Assembly (NCBI GenBank): GCA_017480325.1
Contig: JAFVAY010000003.1
Span: 1 to 64,000, forward strand
Length of the DNA stretch: 64,000 nucleotides
Source of the DNA: Clostridiales bacterium
GTDB taxonomy: Bacteria > Bacillota > Clostridia > Saccharofermentanales > Saccharofermentanaceae
Direction: 5' to 3'
Numbering within the stretch: position 1 is the stretch's first letter; the number at the start of each line of letters is the position of its first letter. A model generated the notes under the pieces. The model was not told the origin of the DNA, made no database searches, and saw nothing but the letters and a program-made list of their open reading frames with translations. The position numbers and the translations under genes were made by a program. Shown here in pieces: positions 50,677 to 58,542 of this stretch.

Positions 50677-52950
50677 TCAGCTCCCTCCTGCATCATTATC
50701 GAATGACAGCGGATAAACGGAGGGATCAAAGTCCTCCATCATCTGCCTGAAGACCTCGTTCAGGTACGATCTTCGGGTTGATTTTATCATAAAGACATAA
50801 CGGTATCTCCCACGAAGCTCGTATATAGGGGCAGGAACAGGCCCGAACAGCTCAAGTCCCAGACTGCTGTCCTGGTATGAAAGGAAATCCTTAAGATATT
50901 TTCTGACATCCTCCGACCTTCTAATGAGCATATCCTCATCAGGGAGGGACAGTATGATCTCTCCTACAGCCTTAAACGGCGGAAGGCTCATGACCTGACG
51001 GTACTTTATCTCCGAATCATAGAAGGCCTCGTAATCTTGATCTGCGGCATACATCAGAAGCGGGTTATCAGGATGAAGGCTTTGAAGGAATACCTTCCCG
51101 GGGACATTACCTCTGCCCGCTCTTCCCGCGGCCTGAGTTATGAGCTCGAAGGCTCGCTCTGAGGACTTATAATCCGAGGACATCGAGATAAGGTCGGCAC
51201 CGAGAACCCCAACCACGGTTACGCTGGGGAAATCATGCCCCTTGGCGATCATCTGAGTCCCGATCAGTATATCCGCCTCTTTATTACGGAACTTTCCCAG
51301 AATAGTCTCGTGGGCTCCCGGAAGCATAGTAGTATCCTGATCCATTCGAAGGACCTTACGGTCGGGATAAAGCTCCTTTAATATCTCCTCGAGCTTTTGG
51401 GTCCCCACTCCCGCTCTTTTGAACTTCGTGCCCTCGCATTCCTTACAAACGGCCTTGGAGCACGGTATGGTGTAGCCACAGTAATGGCATATCATAAGGC
51501 TCTCAGAATCCTTACGATAATGAAGCGTCATCGCCACGGAGCAGTCGGGACAATACACCGGCTCGCCGCAGGAGCTACAGATCAAAGTCCTGGAATAGCC
51601 TCTTCTGTTAAGGAAGAGCATGACCTGCTGTCCCTCGGAGAAGGCCTTAGCCATGGCAACTCTTAAGGGGGCCGACAGAAGATCACCGTAGCCTTCCTGC
51701 ACCTGTCTTCTCATATCAACTATAGAGACCTCAGGCAGCACCGCATCAGCCGACGCTCTCTTATTGAGCTTAAGAAGCCTATATTGCCCATTAGCCGCTG
51801 CGTAATAAGAGGTCACGAGAGGCGTCGCTGATCCCAATATCAGAGGACAGGAATTATACTTCATCCTTAAGAAAGCTATATCTCTCGTGCTGTACTTAGG
51901 GAAGGACTCAGACTTATACGAGGAATCGTGTTCTTCGTCTATAATGATCAGCTTAAGATTCTCCACCGGCGCGAAGATAGAGCTTCTCGGACCTACCACT
52001 ATCCGCGCCTGCCCTCTTCTAATCCTGTCCCACTCATCATATCGCTGACGGTCCGTAAGCCTGCTGTGCATAACTGCCGCAGTATCGCCGAATCTTCCTC
52101 TTATCCAGCTTACGGTCTGAGGGGTAAGGGATATCTCCGGCACCAGGTAAATAACACACCCGCCGCGATCAAGAACCTCTCCCGCGCACTTAAGGTACAC
52201 CTCGGTCTTCCCGCTTCCGGTAATGCCGTTAAGAAGAAACACCTGCGGGCTCCCCAGAGCCGCTCTTACCGTCTCATAGGCCTCCTGTTGCTCATCATTA
52301 AGCTCATGCACTATGCGAAAAGCATCCGGCGATCCCTCATCAACGGCAATACTTTCCTCCTCGATCTCCTCGCGGGTAAGCATTCTGATAGTAAGCTTAA
52401 TAAGCCCCTTCTCCTTAAGACCTCGAAGCTGCGCATCCGAGGCTTTGACCGAGGATAAGAGCTTCTTACGCTCTGTCGTTCCCTGATCGAGAAGATACTC
52501 GAGCATATGAATATGAGCAACCGAGCGAAGCCCTCCGGACGCTAATACAGCTCTGGCATCCTGCTCCGAGCTTAACTCCACGAAGGTTGCCTTAGCCTTG
52601 GCGACAGTCCCCACCGCCGCAGGGATCATCATGGTGATCACATCACCGTAGGTACACAGTAGTCTTTTCTTAAGCGGATCCAGAAGCGCCAGCTGATCTT
52701 TTTTAAGAACGGGATAAAGATCCAGAAGAGAATTGACCTCCTTAAGCTTAGAAGGATCAAAGCCGAGGTCAGCCTCATTGTCACTTACGCTTACGACCAA
52801 GGCGGTTGAGGTCCTGTTGCCAAACCCGAAGGGCACCTTAACATAGGATCCCGGCACCACCTTATCGGCCAATGATTCAGGAACCTTATAGGTATAGGCT
52901 TTGTCAGTCTGCCTTACCGATTCTCTAAGCAGGACCCTGCAGAACCTCAT
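50677..52950 (-). CDS. priA: Primosomal replication-restart helicase PriA
   Basis: 757 residues. An N-terminal 3'-end-binding domain (AYTYKVPESL) precedes the helicase core: Walker A GITGSGKTEVYL and motif II IIDEEHDSSYK. The zinc-binding module has four CxxC pairs (CSSCGEPVYCPDC, CHYCG, CKEC). Helicase motifs V/VI (IGTQMIAKGHDFP; TQAAGRAGRG) are intact. Restarts stalled forks. It begins three bases after polC ends. Confidence 0.95.
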   Translation of the reverse strand: MRFCRVLLRESVRQTDKAYTYKVPESLADKVVPGSYVKVPFGFGNRTSTALVVSVSDNEADLGFDPSKLKEVNSLLDLYPVLKKDQLALLDPLKKRLLCTYGDVITMMIPAAVGTVAKAKATFVELSSEQDARAVLASGGLRSVAHIHMLEYLLDQGTTERKKLLSSVKASDAQLRGLKEKGLIKLTIRMLTREEIEEESIAVDEGSPDAFRIVHELNDEQQEAYETVRAALGSPQVFLLNGITGSGKTEVYLKCAGEVLDRGGCVIYLVPEISLTPQTVSWIRGRFGDTAAVMHSRLTDRQRYDEWDRIRRGQARIVVGPRSSIFAPVENLKLIIIDEEHDSSYKSESFPKYSTRDIAFLRMKYNSCPLILGSATPLVTSYYAAANGQYRLLKLNKRASADAVLPEVSIVDMRRQVQEGYGDLLSAPLRVAMAKAFSEGQQVMLFLNRRGYSRTLICSSCGEPVYCPDCSVAMTLHYRKDSESLMICHYCGYTIPCSKAVCKECEGTKFKRAGVGTQKLEEILKELYPDRKVLRMDQDTTMLPGAHETILGKFRNKEADILIGTQMIAKGHDFPSVTVVGVLGADLISMSSDYKSSERAFELITQAAGRAGRGNVPGKVFLQSLHPDNPLLMYAADQDYEAFYDSEIKYRQVMSLPPFKAVGEIILSLPDEDMLIRRSEDVRKYLKDFLSYQDSSLGLELFGPVPAPIYELRGRYRYVFMIKSTRRSYLNEVFRQMMEDFDPSVYPLSFDNDAGGS

Positions 52951-52953
52951 TCG

Positions 52954-55900
52954 TCAGTTACCGCCGTCCAGAAGTGAGAACAGATCGATCTGAGCCGACT
53001 CAGGCATATCGTCAAGAAGTCCGTAATCTATGAGCTTCTGTAATGCCGACTTACCTACTTTACCCCGATTCATAAGATCATCTCTGTTCTTGAAGGGCTC
53101 CTCGTCACGGGCATCCGTTATCGCTCTTGCCATGGAAGCGGATATCGTGTCTATAGAATCAAGAGGTGGAAGTATGAGCTTCGGACCAATCTTTGTAAAA
53201 TCCGTCGCATGGGAGGTCTTGATGTCTATCGGAGCGAACTCGATGCCTCTGTGATACATCTCCGCTACAAGCTCGCACAGAAAATACTCATCCTGAGCCT
53301 TCTTGGCCGAGCTCTCTCTGGAGTGCATCTTGGTGCTTAATTCGCTCATTCTCGCCTTAAGAGTATCCATCCCCCTGCACATATACTCAGCATCGAATTC
53401 TTCACCTCTGATAGTAAAGTATGCACAATAGTATTCCTCGGGATAATAGACCTTGAACCATGCAACTCTTAAGGTCGATATGGAATAGGCAGCAGCGTGC
53501 GCCTTCGGGAACATGTACTTTATCTTCTCACAGGAACCTATGTACCAGTCAGGTACATTATGCTCCTTCATGCTGGCCTTCCACTTCTCCCATTTCTCGG
53601 CAACGGCGCCATTAGCCACCTTGCCCTTACGCACAGCCTCCATGATGTCGAAGGCATCCTTATTATCAAGTCCCCAATATATTAGTCTGGTCATGATGGA
53701 ATCTCGGCAACCTATGACAGAGTTAAGGTCGCAGATACCGTCATTAATAAGATCCTGCGCATTACCCTTCCAGACATCCGTGCCGTGAGACAGACCCATA
53801 AGCTGAACAAGATCGTAGAATCTTGTAGGCTTTGTCTCCTTTATCATTCCTCTTGCCATAGGAGTACCAAGCTCAGACAGTCCGATAGTTGCTGATCCTG
53901 CCTCCGACTCCTCTATCGGGAAGCCAAGGGCATCCGTCGATTCGAGCAATGACATGACCTTAGGGTCAGGAACAGGAATCTCCGTTATTGTCTCACCGGT
54001 AAGAAGATGAAGCATACGAAGAACAGTAGGATCAAGGTGACCTAAGATATCAAGCTTCAAGATGGTATCGTGCATGGCGCGGAAATCGAAGTGAGTGGTT
54101 ATTATTCCGCAGTCGGTCTTATTGGCAGGATACTGTATAGGGGTAAATTCATATACATCCTGTTCCTTAGGAATAACGACAATGCCTCCCGGGTGCTGAG
54201 AAGTAGTTCTCTTAACTCCCATGATCCCCTTTGACATATACATAAGCTCACCGGTCGAATAAGGCTTCCCCAGCTTCTCACATGCTGATCTTGCTACCGC
54301 CAAGGCGTTCTTATCGGCATAGGTACCTACCGTGCCGGCCTTGAATGTATGGGTGGGACCGAACAGATAATCGACATACTTATGAGCAGAAGCCTGGTTA
54401 AGGCTTGAGAAGTTAAGATCGATATCCGGCTGTTTATCTCCGTAGAAGCCCAGGAAGGTCTCGAAGGGAATATCCTGACCGTCCCGCTTCATCTGCTCTC
54501 CGCACTCCGGACAGCTCTTGACCGGGAGGTCATATCCCGATCCGTATTCACCGGAGTTATTAAACTCCACGTAATGACACTTGGGACACCTGTAGTGAGG
54601 CGCCAGAGGATTAACCTCCGAGATACCGAGCATAGTCGCAGTAAAGGAGGATCCTACCGATCCTCTGGAGCCTACTATAAAGCCCTCGTTATTGGAGTTC
54701 TTAACAAGCCTGTAGGCTATATAATACATGATCGCGAAGCCGTTACCGATAATGGACAGAAGCTCATTGTCAAGACGCTCCTTAACAGCCGGATCGAGCA
54801 CTCCGTTATGCCTGTAAAGCTTATTCGCACTTGTATATGCTATATCTCTAACATCCGATGCGGCACGGGCGATCATAGGCGGATATGTTCCGTCCGGGAA
54901 GGGCTTGATACCGTATTCGATAAGATCGGCAACCTTATTGGTATTTGTTACTACAGCCTCGAAGGCACGTTCTTCCCCAAGATACGAGAACTCCTCCAGC
55001 ATCTCCTCCGTATTACGGAAGTAAAGATCCGACTGCATATCGGCGTCGCTGAAGCCCATATCCATCAGCATGTACTTCCTATACATACCATCCTCTTTAT
55101 TAAGGAAGTGAGAGTCAGTGGTAGCGATCAGCGGCATATCAAAGGCATATGCCACATCGGACAGCAGTACATTGACGTTGAGGATATCGTCCTCGTTAAG
55201 TCTTACATTTCCCGTATCCGATTTCTCGGGATCCTGCCTTGTAAGAAACATGTTGTTGCAAAGAGGCTGTATCTCCACATAGTCGTAAAGACTCAGTATA
55301 TCCTTGAAGCTCGCGTCAATCTTAAGCGCCTCCAGGGTCTTCGCAGGATCCTTCCCGCATTCCTTATACTTGGAAATAACAGCGCGGTATATCTCACCGC
55401 GTTCACAGGCACCGCCCACGATTATGGACGAGCCGAAATATTTAAGAAGACTCTTAGGCGTTCTGGGACGCCTGTAGAAATAATGAACATTCGACTCCGA
55501 CACTATCCTGTAGAGGTTATAAAGCCCGAGATTATTACGTACAAGATAGATAATATGATAGCTGGGGCAATCCTTGGACTTGATATAGGAAGCATCCTTA
55601 TGTCCCGCTCTCTTATTAAGCTCCGTAGGATCCGTAGTTCCCTCTGCTTTAATGTAATCGATGATATATCTTCCGTCCTTATACACCTTGTCCAGAAGAT
55701 CGTTGCCGGTAGAAGGCTCGTAGGAGCTGTCCTCCTTAACAGAGGAATACTTCTCTATATCCTCGACACTGATAGCGGGCTGCAGAAACTTGGCCCTGTA
55801 GTACTTATGATCCTCTATATTGATACCGAAGCCCGCACGGCGCATATAGCTTAATGCAGTGAGGATCCCGCGTCCTGCGACGTATGCATCTCCGATAAAC

Positions 55901-57468
55901 TCACAAAGCTCACTCATACGCCAGTATGAATCACAGGGCTCACCTTTTCCTTCGTATATTATATCCTCGACATCTGCGTAGAAGTCGGCAACATGCTCAT
56001 ACTCTATAATCTCAGGTACAAGCTCCGACCCGTCATCGGTGTAAGGTGTCTTGATCTGTCCGTCGATATTAAGAGTATGAGGCTCGCCGTTCTCAGAATT
56101 ATCTGTAAGACCGGGAAGATTCTCATCACGAAGCTTCTCCGGGATCTCCTCGGGATTCCACAAGGATCTGTCGATATCGTGAGAAGCGAATTCCTGAGCC
56201 TGAGCATCGGACTCGCCCTCTTCCACGGGACGAATGCCCTTATAGCCCTTAAGTCTGTACTTACTTGCAGCAACACGCGTAAAGGTATCGGTGCTCTCAT
56301 CGGTCCCGTTAGTCTCTATCGCTATAGTTACAAACTCCCCTACCGCCTTGACCGGCTCGCCCTCAGGCTCATAATCCTTAGTCGGTATATACGGAAGGTT
56401 ATAGAATATCGTCGGGCCGTCATCCGCCAGGTAGCCTTCGCAGCCCAGGATAGCCTTGAACTTCTCCTCGCCCTCACCGCGTTTCTTATTTATGCTTTTC
56501 GCTGCCTCATAAACTGCCGGAAACGCCTGAACTACTCCGTGATCGGTTATGGCGCACGCTCTGTGACCGAAGGAATCCGCGAGCTTCATTATATCCGCGG
56601 GAGCGCTTACTGCGTCCTTCTCACTCATCTTAGAGTGGACATGAAGCTCGACACGCTTGTACTGACTCTCGTCTCGCCTCGGCGCAGGAGGATCCGCTTC
56701 ATAGATGCCGCCCACCTTCACGATACGCTCATGGGTAGCGTTATCGAATCCGACCGAGACCTGATAGCCTGCGTAGGTGCCTGAGGTGAAGCTCTTATCG
56801 AACTTATCCGCTTCCTCGGGCTTCAGGAACATGACCGCGTTGATACCTCCCGTCTTATCTACGATATGAAACTTGGCGATGATCCACTGTCCGGACTTTG
56901 TCAGCTTAAGTATACCCGCCTTCTTCTCGTCCTCCAGAAGCACCATGGTGCCTTCGATATTTACATTCGTCGAGCTGTCCTCCAGCTCGGCAATAGTCAC
57001 ATTGACCGAATTGGCATAAACACGCCCGAACATGGCTTCGATACTCTTCTTAGCCTTGTATTTCTTCTTATCGCCGTCAGAGCCGTACTGCTGCTTCTGC
57101 TCCTTGGCCTTGGCTACCCACGAGTTCTTGTTCCCCGGAGCTTCATCCTTCTTGGCCTTCTCCTCCGCCTTCTGCTTCTTGGCGCGCTCCTCTTCCTCCA
57201 GCATCATGAGGATCTCATCAGATACTCCTCCTGCAGGAGCCCTGCCCGCCGCCTTCTCGAAAACAACCTCTACCCTGCTTCCGGTCTTCTCTTCCATGGC
57301 AGTGACAACCTTGCCGAGCATCTCATCGATGCCCTGCGGCTTGGTGTTTTTTATCTTGATCCTGATCTCATTCTGATCCTTATAGTAGTCGATTTTGTCG
57401 ATACTTAACCCGCCAAGACCATCCTCCAGCTCCGGTCCCAGCCCCAAAGATTTTATAAGCTTTCTCAT
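52954..57468 (-). CDS. polC: DNA polymerase III alpha subunit PolC with degenerate exonuclease domain
   Basis: 1504 residues, the Gram-positive replicase. Order: N-terminal domain and basic linker (1-150), OB fold about 165-255, PHP part 1 with ELHVHSKMSEKDA (His276, His278) and AITDHG, exonuclease-like insert about 355-630, PHP part 2 (SYHIIYLV; TTDSHFLN), zinc module CPKCHYVEF/CPECGE, then the polymerase with catalytic-Asp motifs KQPDIDLNFS and LKLDILGH, and a C-terminal HhH region. The insert keeps the exonuclease strand as FVTIAIETNG (379-388), where active enzymes have DxE: the first Asp is Ala383, Glu385 remains. The motif II equivalent VAGRGILT (530-537) lacks the Asp. It starts one base from ispG. 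Confidence 0.93.
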   Translation of the reverse strand: MRKLIKSLGLGPELEDGLGGLSIDKIDYYKDQNEIRIKIKNTKPQGIDEMLGKVVTAMEEKTGSRVEVVFEKAAGRAPAGGVSDEILMMLEEEERAKKQKAEEKAKKDEAPGNKNSWVAKAKEQKQQYGSDGDKKKYKAKKSIEAMFGRVYANSVNVTIAELEDSSTNVNIEGTMVLLEDEKKAGILKLTKSGQWIIAKFHIVDKTGGINAVMFLKPEEADKFDKSFTSGTYAGYQVSVGFDNATHERIVKVGGIYEADPPAPRRDESQYKRVELHVHSKMSEKDAVSAPADIMKLADSFGHRACAITDHGVVQAFPAVYEAAKSINKKRGEGEEKFKAILGCEGYLADDGPTIFYNLPYIPTKDYEPEGEPVKAVGEFVTIAIETNGTDESTDTFTRVAASKYRLKGYKGIRPVEEGESDAQAQEFASHDIDRSLWNPEEIPEKLRDENLPGLTDNSENGEPHTLNIDGQIKTPYTDDGSELVPEIIEYEHVADFYADVEDIIYEGKGEPCDSYWRMSELCEFIGDAYVAGRGILTALSYMRRAGFGINIEDHKYYRAKFLQPAISVEDIEKYSSVKEDSSYEPSTGNDLLDKVYKDGRYIIDYIKAEGTTDPTELNKRAGHKDASYIKSKDCPSYHIIYLVRNNLGLYNLYRIVSESNVHYFYRRPRTPKSLLKYFGSSIIVGGACERGEIYRAVISKYKECGKDPAKTLEALKIDASFKDILSLYDYVEIQPLCNNMFLTRQDPEKSDTGNVRLNEDDILNVNVLLSDVAYAFDMPLIATTDSHFLNKEDGMYRKYMLMDMGFSDADMQSDLYFRNTEEMLEEFSYLGEERAFEAVVTNTNKVADLIEYGIKPFPDGTYPPMIARAASDVRDIAYTSANKLYRHNGVLDPAVKERLDNELLSIIGNGFAIMYYIAYRLVKNSNNEGFIVGSRGSVGSSFTATMLGISEVNPLAPHYRCPKCHYVEFNNSGEYGSGYDLPVKSCPECGEQMKRDGQDIPFETFLGFYGDKQPDIDLNFSSLNQASAHKYVDYLFGPTHTFKAGTVGTYADKNALAVARSACEKLGKPYSTGELMYMSKGIMGVKRTTSQHPGGIVVIPKEQDVYEFTPIQYPANKTDCGIITTHFDFRAMHDTILKLDILGHLDPTVLRMLHLLTGETITEIPVPDPKVMSLLESTDALGFPIEESEAGSATIGLSELGTPMARGMIKETKPTRFYDLVQLMGLSHGTDVWKGNAQDLINDGICDLNSVIGCRDSIMTRLIYWGLDNKDAFDIMEAVRKGKVANGAVAEKWEKWKASMKEHNVPDWYIGSCEKIKYMFPKAHAAAYSISTLRVAWFKVYYPEEYYCAYFTIRGEEFDAEYMCRGMDTLKARMSELSTKMHSRESSAKKAQDEYFLCELVAEMYHRGIEFAPIDIKTSHATDFTKIGPKLILPPLDSIDTISASMARAITDARDEEPFKNRDDLMNRGKVGKSALQKLIDYGLLDDMPESAQIDLFSLLDGGN

Positions 57469-58542
57469 TTAACCCTCTTTAGCTTGTGACTTTAATTTCT
57501 CTTCGCCGAGAGCTCTTACCTGTTCAACGAACTCATCCACTGCGGTCTCGGCCTTGAGCTTACGCTCTATCTTTCCCTTCTTAAACAGAAGAAATTCCCC
57601 GTTTCCTCCGGCAAGTCCGATATCGGCTTCTCTTGCCTCTCCGGGCCCGTTCACGGCGCATCCCATTATGGCGACCTTAAGATCATACGGGAAGCCTTCT
57701 ATCCTGCGCTCGACCTCGCCTGCGATCTCGATCAAAGGCACCTTTGTCCTTCCGCATGTAGGACATGACACGAAGTTGATCCCTCCGCTTCTTAGATCCA
57801 GCGCCTTAAGAATGCTCTTGGCGGCGTATATCTCGTCTACCGGATCTCCGGTAAGAGAGACACGTATGGTGTCGCCTATCCCCTCCGCCAGAAGCGTTCC
57901 GATGCCTACAGCAGACTTTATGGCTCCCTCCTTTATAGTCCCGGCCTCCGTTACACCGACATGGAGAGGATAATCACAGGCCTTACTCATTAGCCTGTAG
58001 GTATCGATAGTAAGCTTCGGACTTGATGACTTTATGGAGATGACGATATCGCCGAAGTCCACATCCTCAAGAAGCTTCACGGCATCAAGCGCACTTCTTG
58101 TCATATTCTCGGCGCATACTCCGCCGTACTCGTCCACCAGCTTCCTGTCGATAGAACCGGAATTAACACCGACCCTTATGGGGAGTCCTCTCTTCTTGCA
58201 TTCATCGGCTACCTGTCTGAGCTTATCGGGACCTCCGATATTGCCGGGATTGATCCTGATCTTAGCGGCGCCGTGCTTTGCCGCCTCTATGGCGAGACGA
58301 TAATCGAAGTGAATGTCTGCCACCACGGGGATGGGAGACTGAGAAGTGATCTCGGATAGGGCTTCTGCCGCCTCCATATCGGGAACCGTTACTCTTGTTA
58401 TGTCACAACCCGCGTCATAAAGCCTCGCGATCTGCTCCAGCGTAGCCTTCACATCCTGCGTTCTTGTATTATTCATGGATTGTATTCTGACGGGGTTTCC
58501 TCCTCCCAGAAGAACTCCGCCGACATTAACAACTGAAGTCAT
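57469..58542 (-). CDS. ispG: 4-hydroxy-3-methylbut-2-en-1-yl diphosphate synthase
   Basis: 357 residues. It converts MEcPP to HMBPP in the MEP isoprenoid pathway. An N-terminal TIM barrel (VRIQSMNNTRT; INPGNIGG) is followed by a C-terminal domain whose 4Fe-4S Cys are in CPTCGRT and GCAVNGPGE. AAAGGAA precedes the ATG. It directly abuts polC, as commonly seen in Clostridia with the dxr-rseP-ispG-polC order; dxr and rseP are not upstream here. Confidence 0.95.
   Translation of the reverse strand: MTSVVNVGGVLLGGGNPVRIQSMNNTRTQDVKATLEQIARLYDAGCDITRVTVPDMEAAEALSEITSQSPIPVVADIHFDYRLAIEAAKHGAAKIRINPGNIGGPDKLRQVADECKKRGLPIRVGVNSGSIDRKLVDEYGGVCAENMTRSALDAVKLLEDVDFGDIVISIKSSSPKLTIDTYRLMSKACDYPLHVGVTEAGTIKEGAIKSAVGIGTLLAEGIGDTIRVSLTGDPVDEIYAAKSILKALDLRSGGINFVSCPTCGRTKVPLIEIAGEVERRIEGFPYDLKVAIMGCAVNGPGEAREADIGLAGGNGEFLLFKKGKIERKLKAETAVDEFVEQVRALGEEKLKSQAKEG

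Follow-up and report, generated by a model that had tools for sequence, protein, structure and literature searches.

What removes mismatched 3′ ends when a replicative DNA polymerase retains a built-in proofreading domain that appears to have lost its catalytic residues? This question is raised by the polC gene in a stretch of 64,000 nucleotides (the window; positions 1 to 64,000 of the forward strand of contig JAFVAY010000003.1, assembly GCA_017480325.1) from a Clostridiales bacterium of the Saccharofermentanaceae, which we take to be a gut bacterium. PolC normally carries a DnaQ-type (DEDDh) proofreading exonuclease within its PHP domain, at residues matching 355 to 630 of the window protein. 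An earlier note on this DNA had proposed that the exonuclease is inactivated and that the replisome would then depend on a separate exonuclease or tolerate a high mutation rate. Residues, homology and relatives strongly supported the predicted inactivation; neither of the two consequences was borne out, and proofreading by the PHP domain, an option the note did not name, fits better than either.

Loss of catalytic residues from the PolC exonuclease domain

The open reading frame, frame and domain were as first described. The protein gave full-length matches above cut-off to NCBIfam PRK00448.1 (1224.2 bits; cut-off, 873 bits) and TIGR01405 (1114.8 bits; curated cut-off, 1043.45 bits), and the nearest solved structures were 9qpc (Enterococcus faecium PolC) and 3f2b (Geobacillus kaustophilus PolC). 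The architecture was that of PolC, with an OB domain N-terminal to the PHP domain, the exonuclease inside the PHP domain, and a C-terminal HhH region and clamp motif.

52954 to 57468, minus strand: polC, PolC-type DNA polymerase III alpha subunit, 1504 amino acids (open reading frame, NCBIfam and closest structures).
55573 to 56346, minus strand: DnaQ-type (DEDDh) exonuclease domain, catalytically degenerate, within the PHP domain, residues ~375 to 632 (hhalign; AlphaFold fold match).
56320 to 56322, minus strand: Ala383, position of the motif I Asp (profile alignment).
56314 to 56316, minus strand: Glu385, position of the motif I Glu, the sole retained catalytic residue, not conserved in the genus.
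55855 to 55857, minus strand: Ala538, position of the motif II Asp (profile alignment).
55702 to 55704, minus strand: Asn589, position of the motif III His (profile alignment).
55687 to 55689, minus strand: Lys594, position of the motif III Asp (profile alignment).

The flagged stretch, 55580 to 56406, encodes PolC residues 355 to 630, which were skipped or weakly aligned in both PDB alignments, and Pfam RNase_T did not match the window insert even at an E value of 10, the value for the intact insert of a sister species being 3e-32. When a profile of 16 members of the genus was compared by hhalign with one built from 20 intact PolC exonucleases, however, the two aligned end to end, with Prob 99 and an E value of 4.9e-18. 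An AlphaFold model of the insert (low confidence; predicted local distance difference test score [pLDDT], 54) best matched the Exo domain of PolC in 9qpc, residues 411 to 606 (Z, 10.5; 158 residues aligned), followed by other DnaQ-fold nucleases; this model was built with sister sequences, from an alignment that contained active relatives, and was used as fold support only. Foldseek alone detected no match to it below an E value of 0.5, and a model of the PHP domain plus insert from genus sequences alone (pLDDT, 46) was not used. Profile alignment and fold match together indicate that the insert is a DnaQ domain by homology.

Inspection of all five DEDDh positions in the profile alignment demonstrated that four were replaced in the window PolC (A383, E385, A538, N589 and K594), an active DEDDh exonuclease having all five, and that the helix preceding motif III (HxxxxD) was shortened. 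The reading of motif I as FVTIAIETNG, with Ala for the first Asp, was thus confirmed. Loss of the motif II Asp also stood, although the residue concerned is A538, one past the T537 implied by the proposed alignment of VAGRGILT. No intact DEDDh set was found elsewhere in the insert by profile alignment. From these residues, the DnaQ domain of the window PolC is predicted to have lost two-Mg exonuclease activity. An assembly or frame error was ruled out as the cause of the degenerate domain, which is in-frame in dozens of species and has a low ratio of nonsynonymous to synonymous substitution rates (dN/dS).

Repeated loss among relatives

In whole-genome searches, almost every genome of the order (Saccharofermentans-like Clostridia) yielded a PolC. 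Most of the genomes compared are metagenome-assembled genomes (MAGs), and the completeness of the window genome is 85%. For 133 unique PolCs of the order, the exonuclease region was scored by the number of DEDDh residues kept. Scores were bimodal, with 77 sequences keeping only 0 to 2 of the five residues (degenerate) and 56 keeping 4 or 5. Every member sampled from the window's genus (g1; Saccharofermentans plus Clostridiales MAGs) had a degenerate domain, as did genera g17 to g19 of the same family, genera g5, g8 and g21 of family f2, and genome G040 in f4, while the residues were intact in genus g20 of the window's family. Genus g23 was mixed, one of the three species examined (G068) being degenerate and two (G069 and G070) intact. 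Outside the order, all 26 full-length PolCs examined had an intact exonuclease; other PolCs of the class were of the known exonuclease-less kind, with linkers of 10 to 51 amino acids at the exonuclease position.

State changes were placed on a tree inferred with the exonuclease columns excluded. There were at least 4 by starred branches and 5 to 6 by parsimony. A single origin of all degenerate domains was rejected (approximately unbiased test with these rows held together; p, 2e-75), as was a single clade of the degenerate rows of family f2 (p, 2e-5); for family f1, the data fit either one loss or two. These analyses indicated one ancestral loss, at the level of the genus or the family, plus at least three further independent losses in the order.

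Other states were also encountered. Shrunken inserts of 144 to 155 amino acids lacking DEDDh residues were present at the exonuclease position in two PolCs of family f36 (L253 and L254, in G267 and G244), and genus g62 of that family seems to be without PolC. PolC was apparently absent, with matches to DnaE1 only, from genera g15 and g22 of f2 (e.g., G056, G079 and G064) and from G051; the PolC-less genomes include several that are >90% complete.

Constraint on the degenerate domain

The degenerate domains were compared between close species pairs. Values of dN/dS were mostly 0.03 to 0.11, with one pair at 0.18, those for active exonuclease domains being 0.01 to 0.10 and those for the polymerase core 0.00 to 0.05. 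Within the genus, mean identity was 0.58 for the degenerate domain, 0.53 for the OB domain and 0.80 for the core. Two elements of the domain stood out.

55786 to 55851, minus strand: noncatalytic element FLRxxG[FY]...RxKF, here YMRRAGFGINIEDHKYYRAKF (with R543 and K560), directly after motif II.
55969 to 56256, minus strand: genus-specific insertion between motifs I and II, residues ~405 to 500 (alignments A1, A3 and A5).

The first element is common to active and degenerate domains and was near invariant in the latter (R in 77/77, G in 75/77, R in 73/77, K in 77/77 and the final F in 75/77). The low dN/dS together with this conservation indicated that selection acts on something besides DEDDh chemistry, and the insert keeps its fold and is under purifying selection, although its metal-binding residues are gone. 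Plausibly, the element acts as an interface or as a guide for the primer strand or DNA. In Mycobacterium tuberculosis DnaE1, the groove towards the PHP active site is lined by the PHP loop found at the place of the exonuclease insertion; this same loop is where PolC has its DnaQ domain inserted (PMC5636811).

The insertion of roughly 85 residues reported between motifs I and II proved to be real: it spans ~85 to 100 residues, is conserved throughout the genus and missing from the sister clade, and carries conserved EGE..., HDIDxSLW and YEHVADFYAxxxDxIYxGxGEPC motifs. Its invariant acidic residues (EGE, DID and the D/E of YEHVADFYA..ED), together with the purifying selection on the domain, would suit a domain that has remained an active nuclease through a noncanonical site rebuilt from insertion residues. 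The independently degenerate lineages (f2, f4 and g17 to g19) lack the insertion, however, and no shared replacement set of acidic residues was seen across degenerate lineages, so that we regard a rebuilt site as the least probable of the explanations considered here. The insertion was modelled at very low confidence, unusable for active-site geometry.

Separate exonucleases and mismatch repair

Dependence on a separate exonuclease predicts a DnaQ-family protein that proofreads in trans for the degenerate PolC. The window genome does encode one intact free DnaQ of 185 amino acids, and a KapD-like DEDDh protein is present in most genomes. Free DnaQ was not enriched in genomes with a degenerate PolC exonuclease, however, being found in 13/32 of these and in 5/15 of those with an intact one (Fisher p, 0.75), counts that rest on PF00929 and that diverged nucleases outside this family would escape. 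It was absent from most near-complete genomes of the window's genus, and two degenerate genomes, G044 (96% complete) and G050 (94% complete), had no PF00929 match of any kind. The free DnaQ of the window genome lies in a Y-family polymerase cassette and has no C-terminal tail past the nuclease domain, while the KapD-like protein also occurs alongside intact PolC exonucleases. Proofreading in trans by such a protein is, on this evidence, improbable.

The cassette (L001:1471-3465, on contig C3 of G000) consists of overlapping genes for a Y-family polymerase, a small open reading frame and the free 185-amino-acid DnaQ, and looks like a translesion module with its own exonuclease.

Loss of canonical proofreading residues could also mean that the lineage tolerates low-fidelity replication as a natural mutator. 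MutS and MutL were present in 33/33 genomes checked, ruling out loss of mismatch repair in all of those tested, and PHP sites were kept in both polymerases. The loss is, furthermore, old and genus-wide, unlike that of transient mutators. Tolerance of a high mutation rate was not supported as a consequence, and a natural mutator seems very unlikely.

The PHP site as candidate proofreader

The PHP and polymerase metal residues, which the earlier note had judged intact, were all present (nine PHP ligands and three palm Asp residues). The PHP ligands lie on either side of the exonuclease insert.

56416 to 56658, minus strand: PHP N-terminal part, ligands H276, H278, D309, H310 and E344.
54859 to 55563, minus strand: PHP C-terminal part, ligands H638, C688, D785 and H787.

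Both PolC and DnaE1 had the full set of five His, three Asp/Glu and one Cys (HHDHEHCDH), which is that of enzymes with a proven PHP exonuclease, whereas G. kaustophilus PolC, with a change at one ligand, has no activity (PMC5636811). All nine ligands were present in 76/76 scorable degenerate PolCs (of 77), in 31/31 DnaE1 proteins and in 19/19 sampled PolCs of other families without a DEDDh exonuclease; the one PolC with a broken PHP site, conversely, has an intact DEDDh exonuclease. Since free DnaQ was not enriched, the PHP ligands were complete and mismatch repair was present, we infer that the PHP site is the best candidate for proofreading. Proofreading has probably reverted from DnaQ to the PHP domain of PolC, DnaE1 or both, with the degenerate DnaQ domain kept as a structural part. 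Mismatched 3′ ends would most likely be removed by the tri-metal PHP exonuclease site of PolC and its partner DnaE1, with mismatch repair as a backup. Retention of the DnaQ domain would follow from its position within the PHP loop and from the noncatalytic FLRxxG[FY]...RxKF element it bears, a putative contact element. A tentative extension, which we think unlikely to hold in full, is that DnaQ proofreading (Mg) has repeatedly given way again to PHP proofreading (Zn) in the order and that this element and the genus-specific insertion form a loop guiding the primer strand to the PHP site.

Several points weigh against PHP proofreading. Nearly every clostridial PolC has the PHP ligands conserved, whether its DnaQ domain is degenerate or intact, so that their conservation alone is no proof of proofreading. 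A complementary pattern of PHP and DEDDh sites rests on one genome with a broken PHP site. The literature examined contained no biochemically demonstrated PolC PHP exonuclease. Both structure models were of low confidence. A diverged trans-acting nuclease, for example the KapD-like DEDDh protein of 330 to 350 amino acids, could serve instead.

The PolC with the broken PHP site (L080; G035:C1:66332-69991) was the only one in the set; it reads HKDRELLNH at the ligand positions and sits on the longest branch of the PolC tree.

Relative roles of PolC and DnaE1

PHP proofreading does not conflict with another view of the replisome, in which DnaE1 is the main replicase and PolC is secondary, so that PolC proofreading is free to decay and PolC is sometimes lost. 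Timinskas et al. (2013) had already considered such an arrangement possible in systems with both polymerases (PMC3919608). Genera g15 and g22, with DnaE1 only, belong to the family (f2) in which degeneration of the PolC exonuclease recurs, and DnaE1 has a canonical clamp motif in addition to its nine PHP ligands. As the order spans active exonucleases, degenerate exonucleases and loss of PolC, a DnaE1-dominant replisome stays viable as an explanation. In degenerate lineages, however, the PolC core, palm Asp residues and clamp motif were fully conserved, and the strong purifying selection on the core (dN/dS as above) argues that PolC probably is still an active and important polymerase. We consider a dominant DnaE1 a credible possibility, but lean against it.

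54049 to 54426, minus strand: intact palm catalytic Asp triad, D1015, D1017 and D1140.
52978 to 52992, minus strand: C-terminal clamp-binding motif QIDLF.

A difference in the DnaE1 clamp motif that tracked the state of the exonuclease was hinted at by a first regular-expression search and then dropped, as the aligned motifs (QISIF versus QxSLF) were both canonical.

Comparison with known systems

The window PolC resembles canonical PolCs (E. faecium 9qpc, Bacillus subtilis and G. kaustophilus) in domain order, insertion of the exonuclease in the PHP loop, fold, core and clamp motif. It differs from them in the four replaced DEDDh residues, the shortened motif III helix and the genus-specific insertion, and from the G. 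kaustophilus enzyme in its complete PHP site. The exonuclease-less PolCs of Clostridia and Negativicutes (Timinskas et al. 2013) are alike in that no DEDDh activity is expected, a DnaE1 partner is present and the PHP site is complete; in those, however, the insert is absent, being a short linker in most of the PolCs sampled, whereas the 287-amino-acid insert of the window PolC is kept and constrained. PHP-proofreading DnaE1 enzymes (M. tuberculosis and Thermus) share the nine-ligand PHP site and do not require DnaQ, and PHP proofreading is predicted likewise for the window PolC. Those enzymes are DnaE1-type and have no DnaQ remnant, and their proofreading is biochemically demonstrated, that of the window PolC being a prediction from residues. 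Catalytically disrupted DnaQ-like domains are also retained in many Pol I enzymes and in PolB2 and PolA2, but these are repair or translesion polymerases, whereas the window PolC is a polymerase III alpha subunit.

A search of the literature on Saccharofermentans PolC returned nothing relevant. Timinskas et al. (2013) described exonuclease-less PolCs in Clostridia, raised the question of whether most of the genome is replicated there by DnaE1 instead of PolC, and stated that clostridial replisomes with both polymerases were experimentally uncharacterised (PMC3919608). According to a 2026 survey, polymerase III alpha subunits lose PHP and not DnaQ. The order examined here contradicts this pattern, the opposite having occurred four or more times in a lineage of replicative polymerases represented mostly by uncultured genomes. 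The sister genera, and g23 with both states, provide a natural comparison for whether the PHP domain proofreads in PolC and for the respective roles of PolC and DnaE1 in clostridial replisomes with both polymerases. The comparison comprises a decay series of active, degenerate, shrunken and absent exonucleases and absence of PolC.

Adjoining genes and other observations

The open reading frames adjoining polC were identified by sequence appearance alone.

57469 to 58542: ispG-like open reading frame.
50677 to 52950: priA-like open reading frame.

Ahead of the OB domain, the window species and its closest relatives have an N-terminal region (window positions 57169 to 57468) with ~100 fewer residues than that of other members of the genus. 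In one near-complete genome of the window's genus, there is a second PolC-like open reading frame (L085; G007:C1:217942-221685) of 1265 amino acids, which lacks the N-terminal/OB region, has R, P and E in place of the palm Asp triad and keeps all nine PHP ligands. These residues suggest a PolC paralogue that is polymerase-dead but has kept its PHP site.

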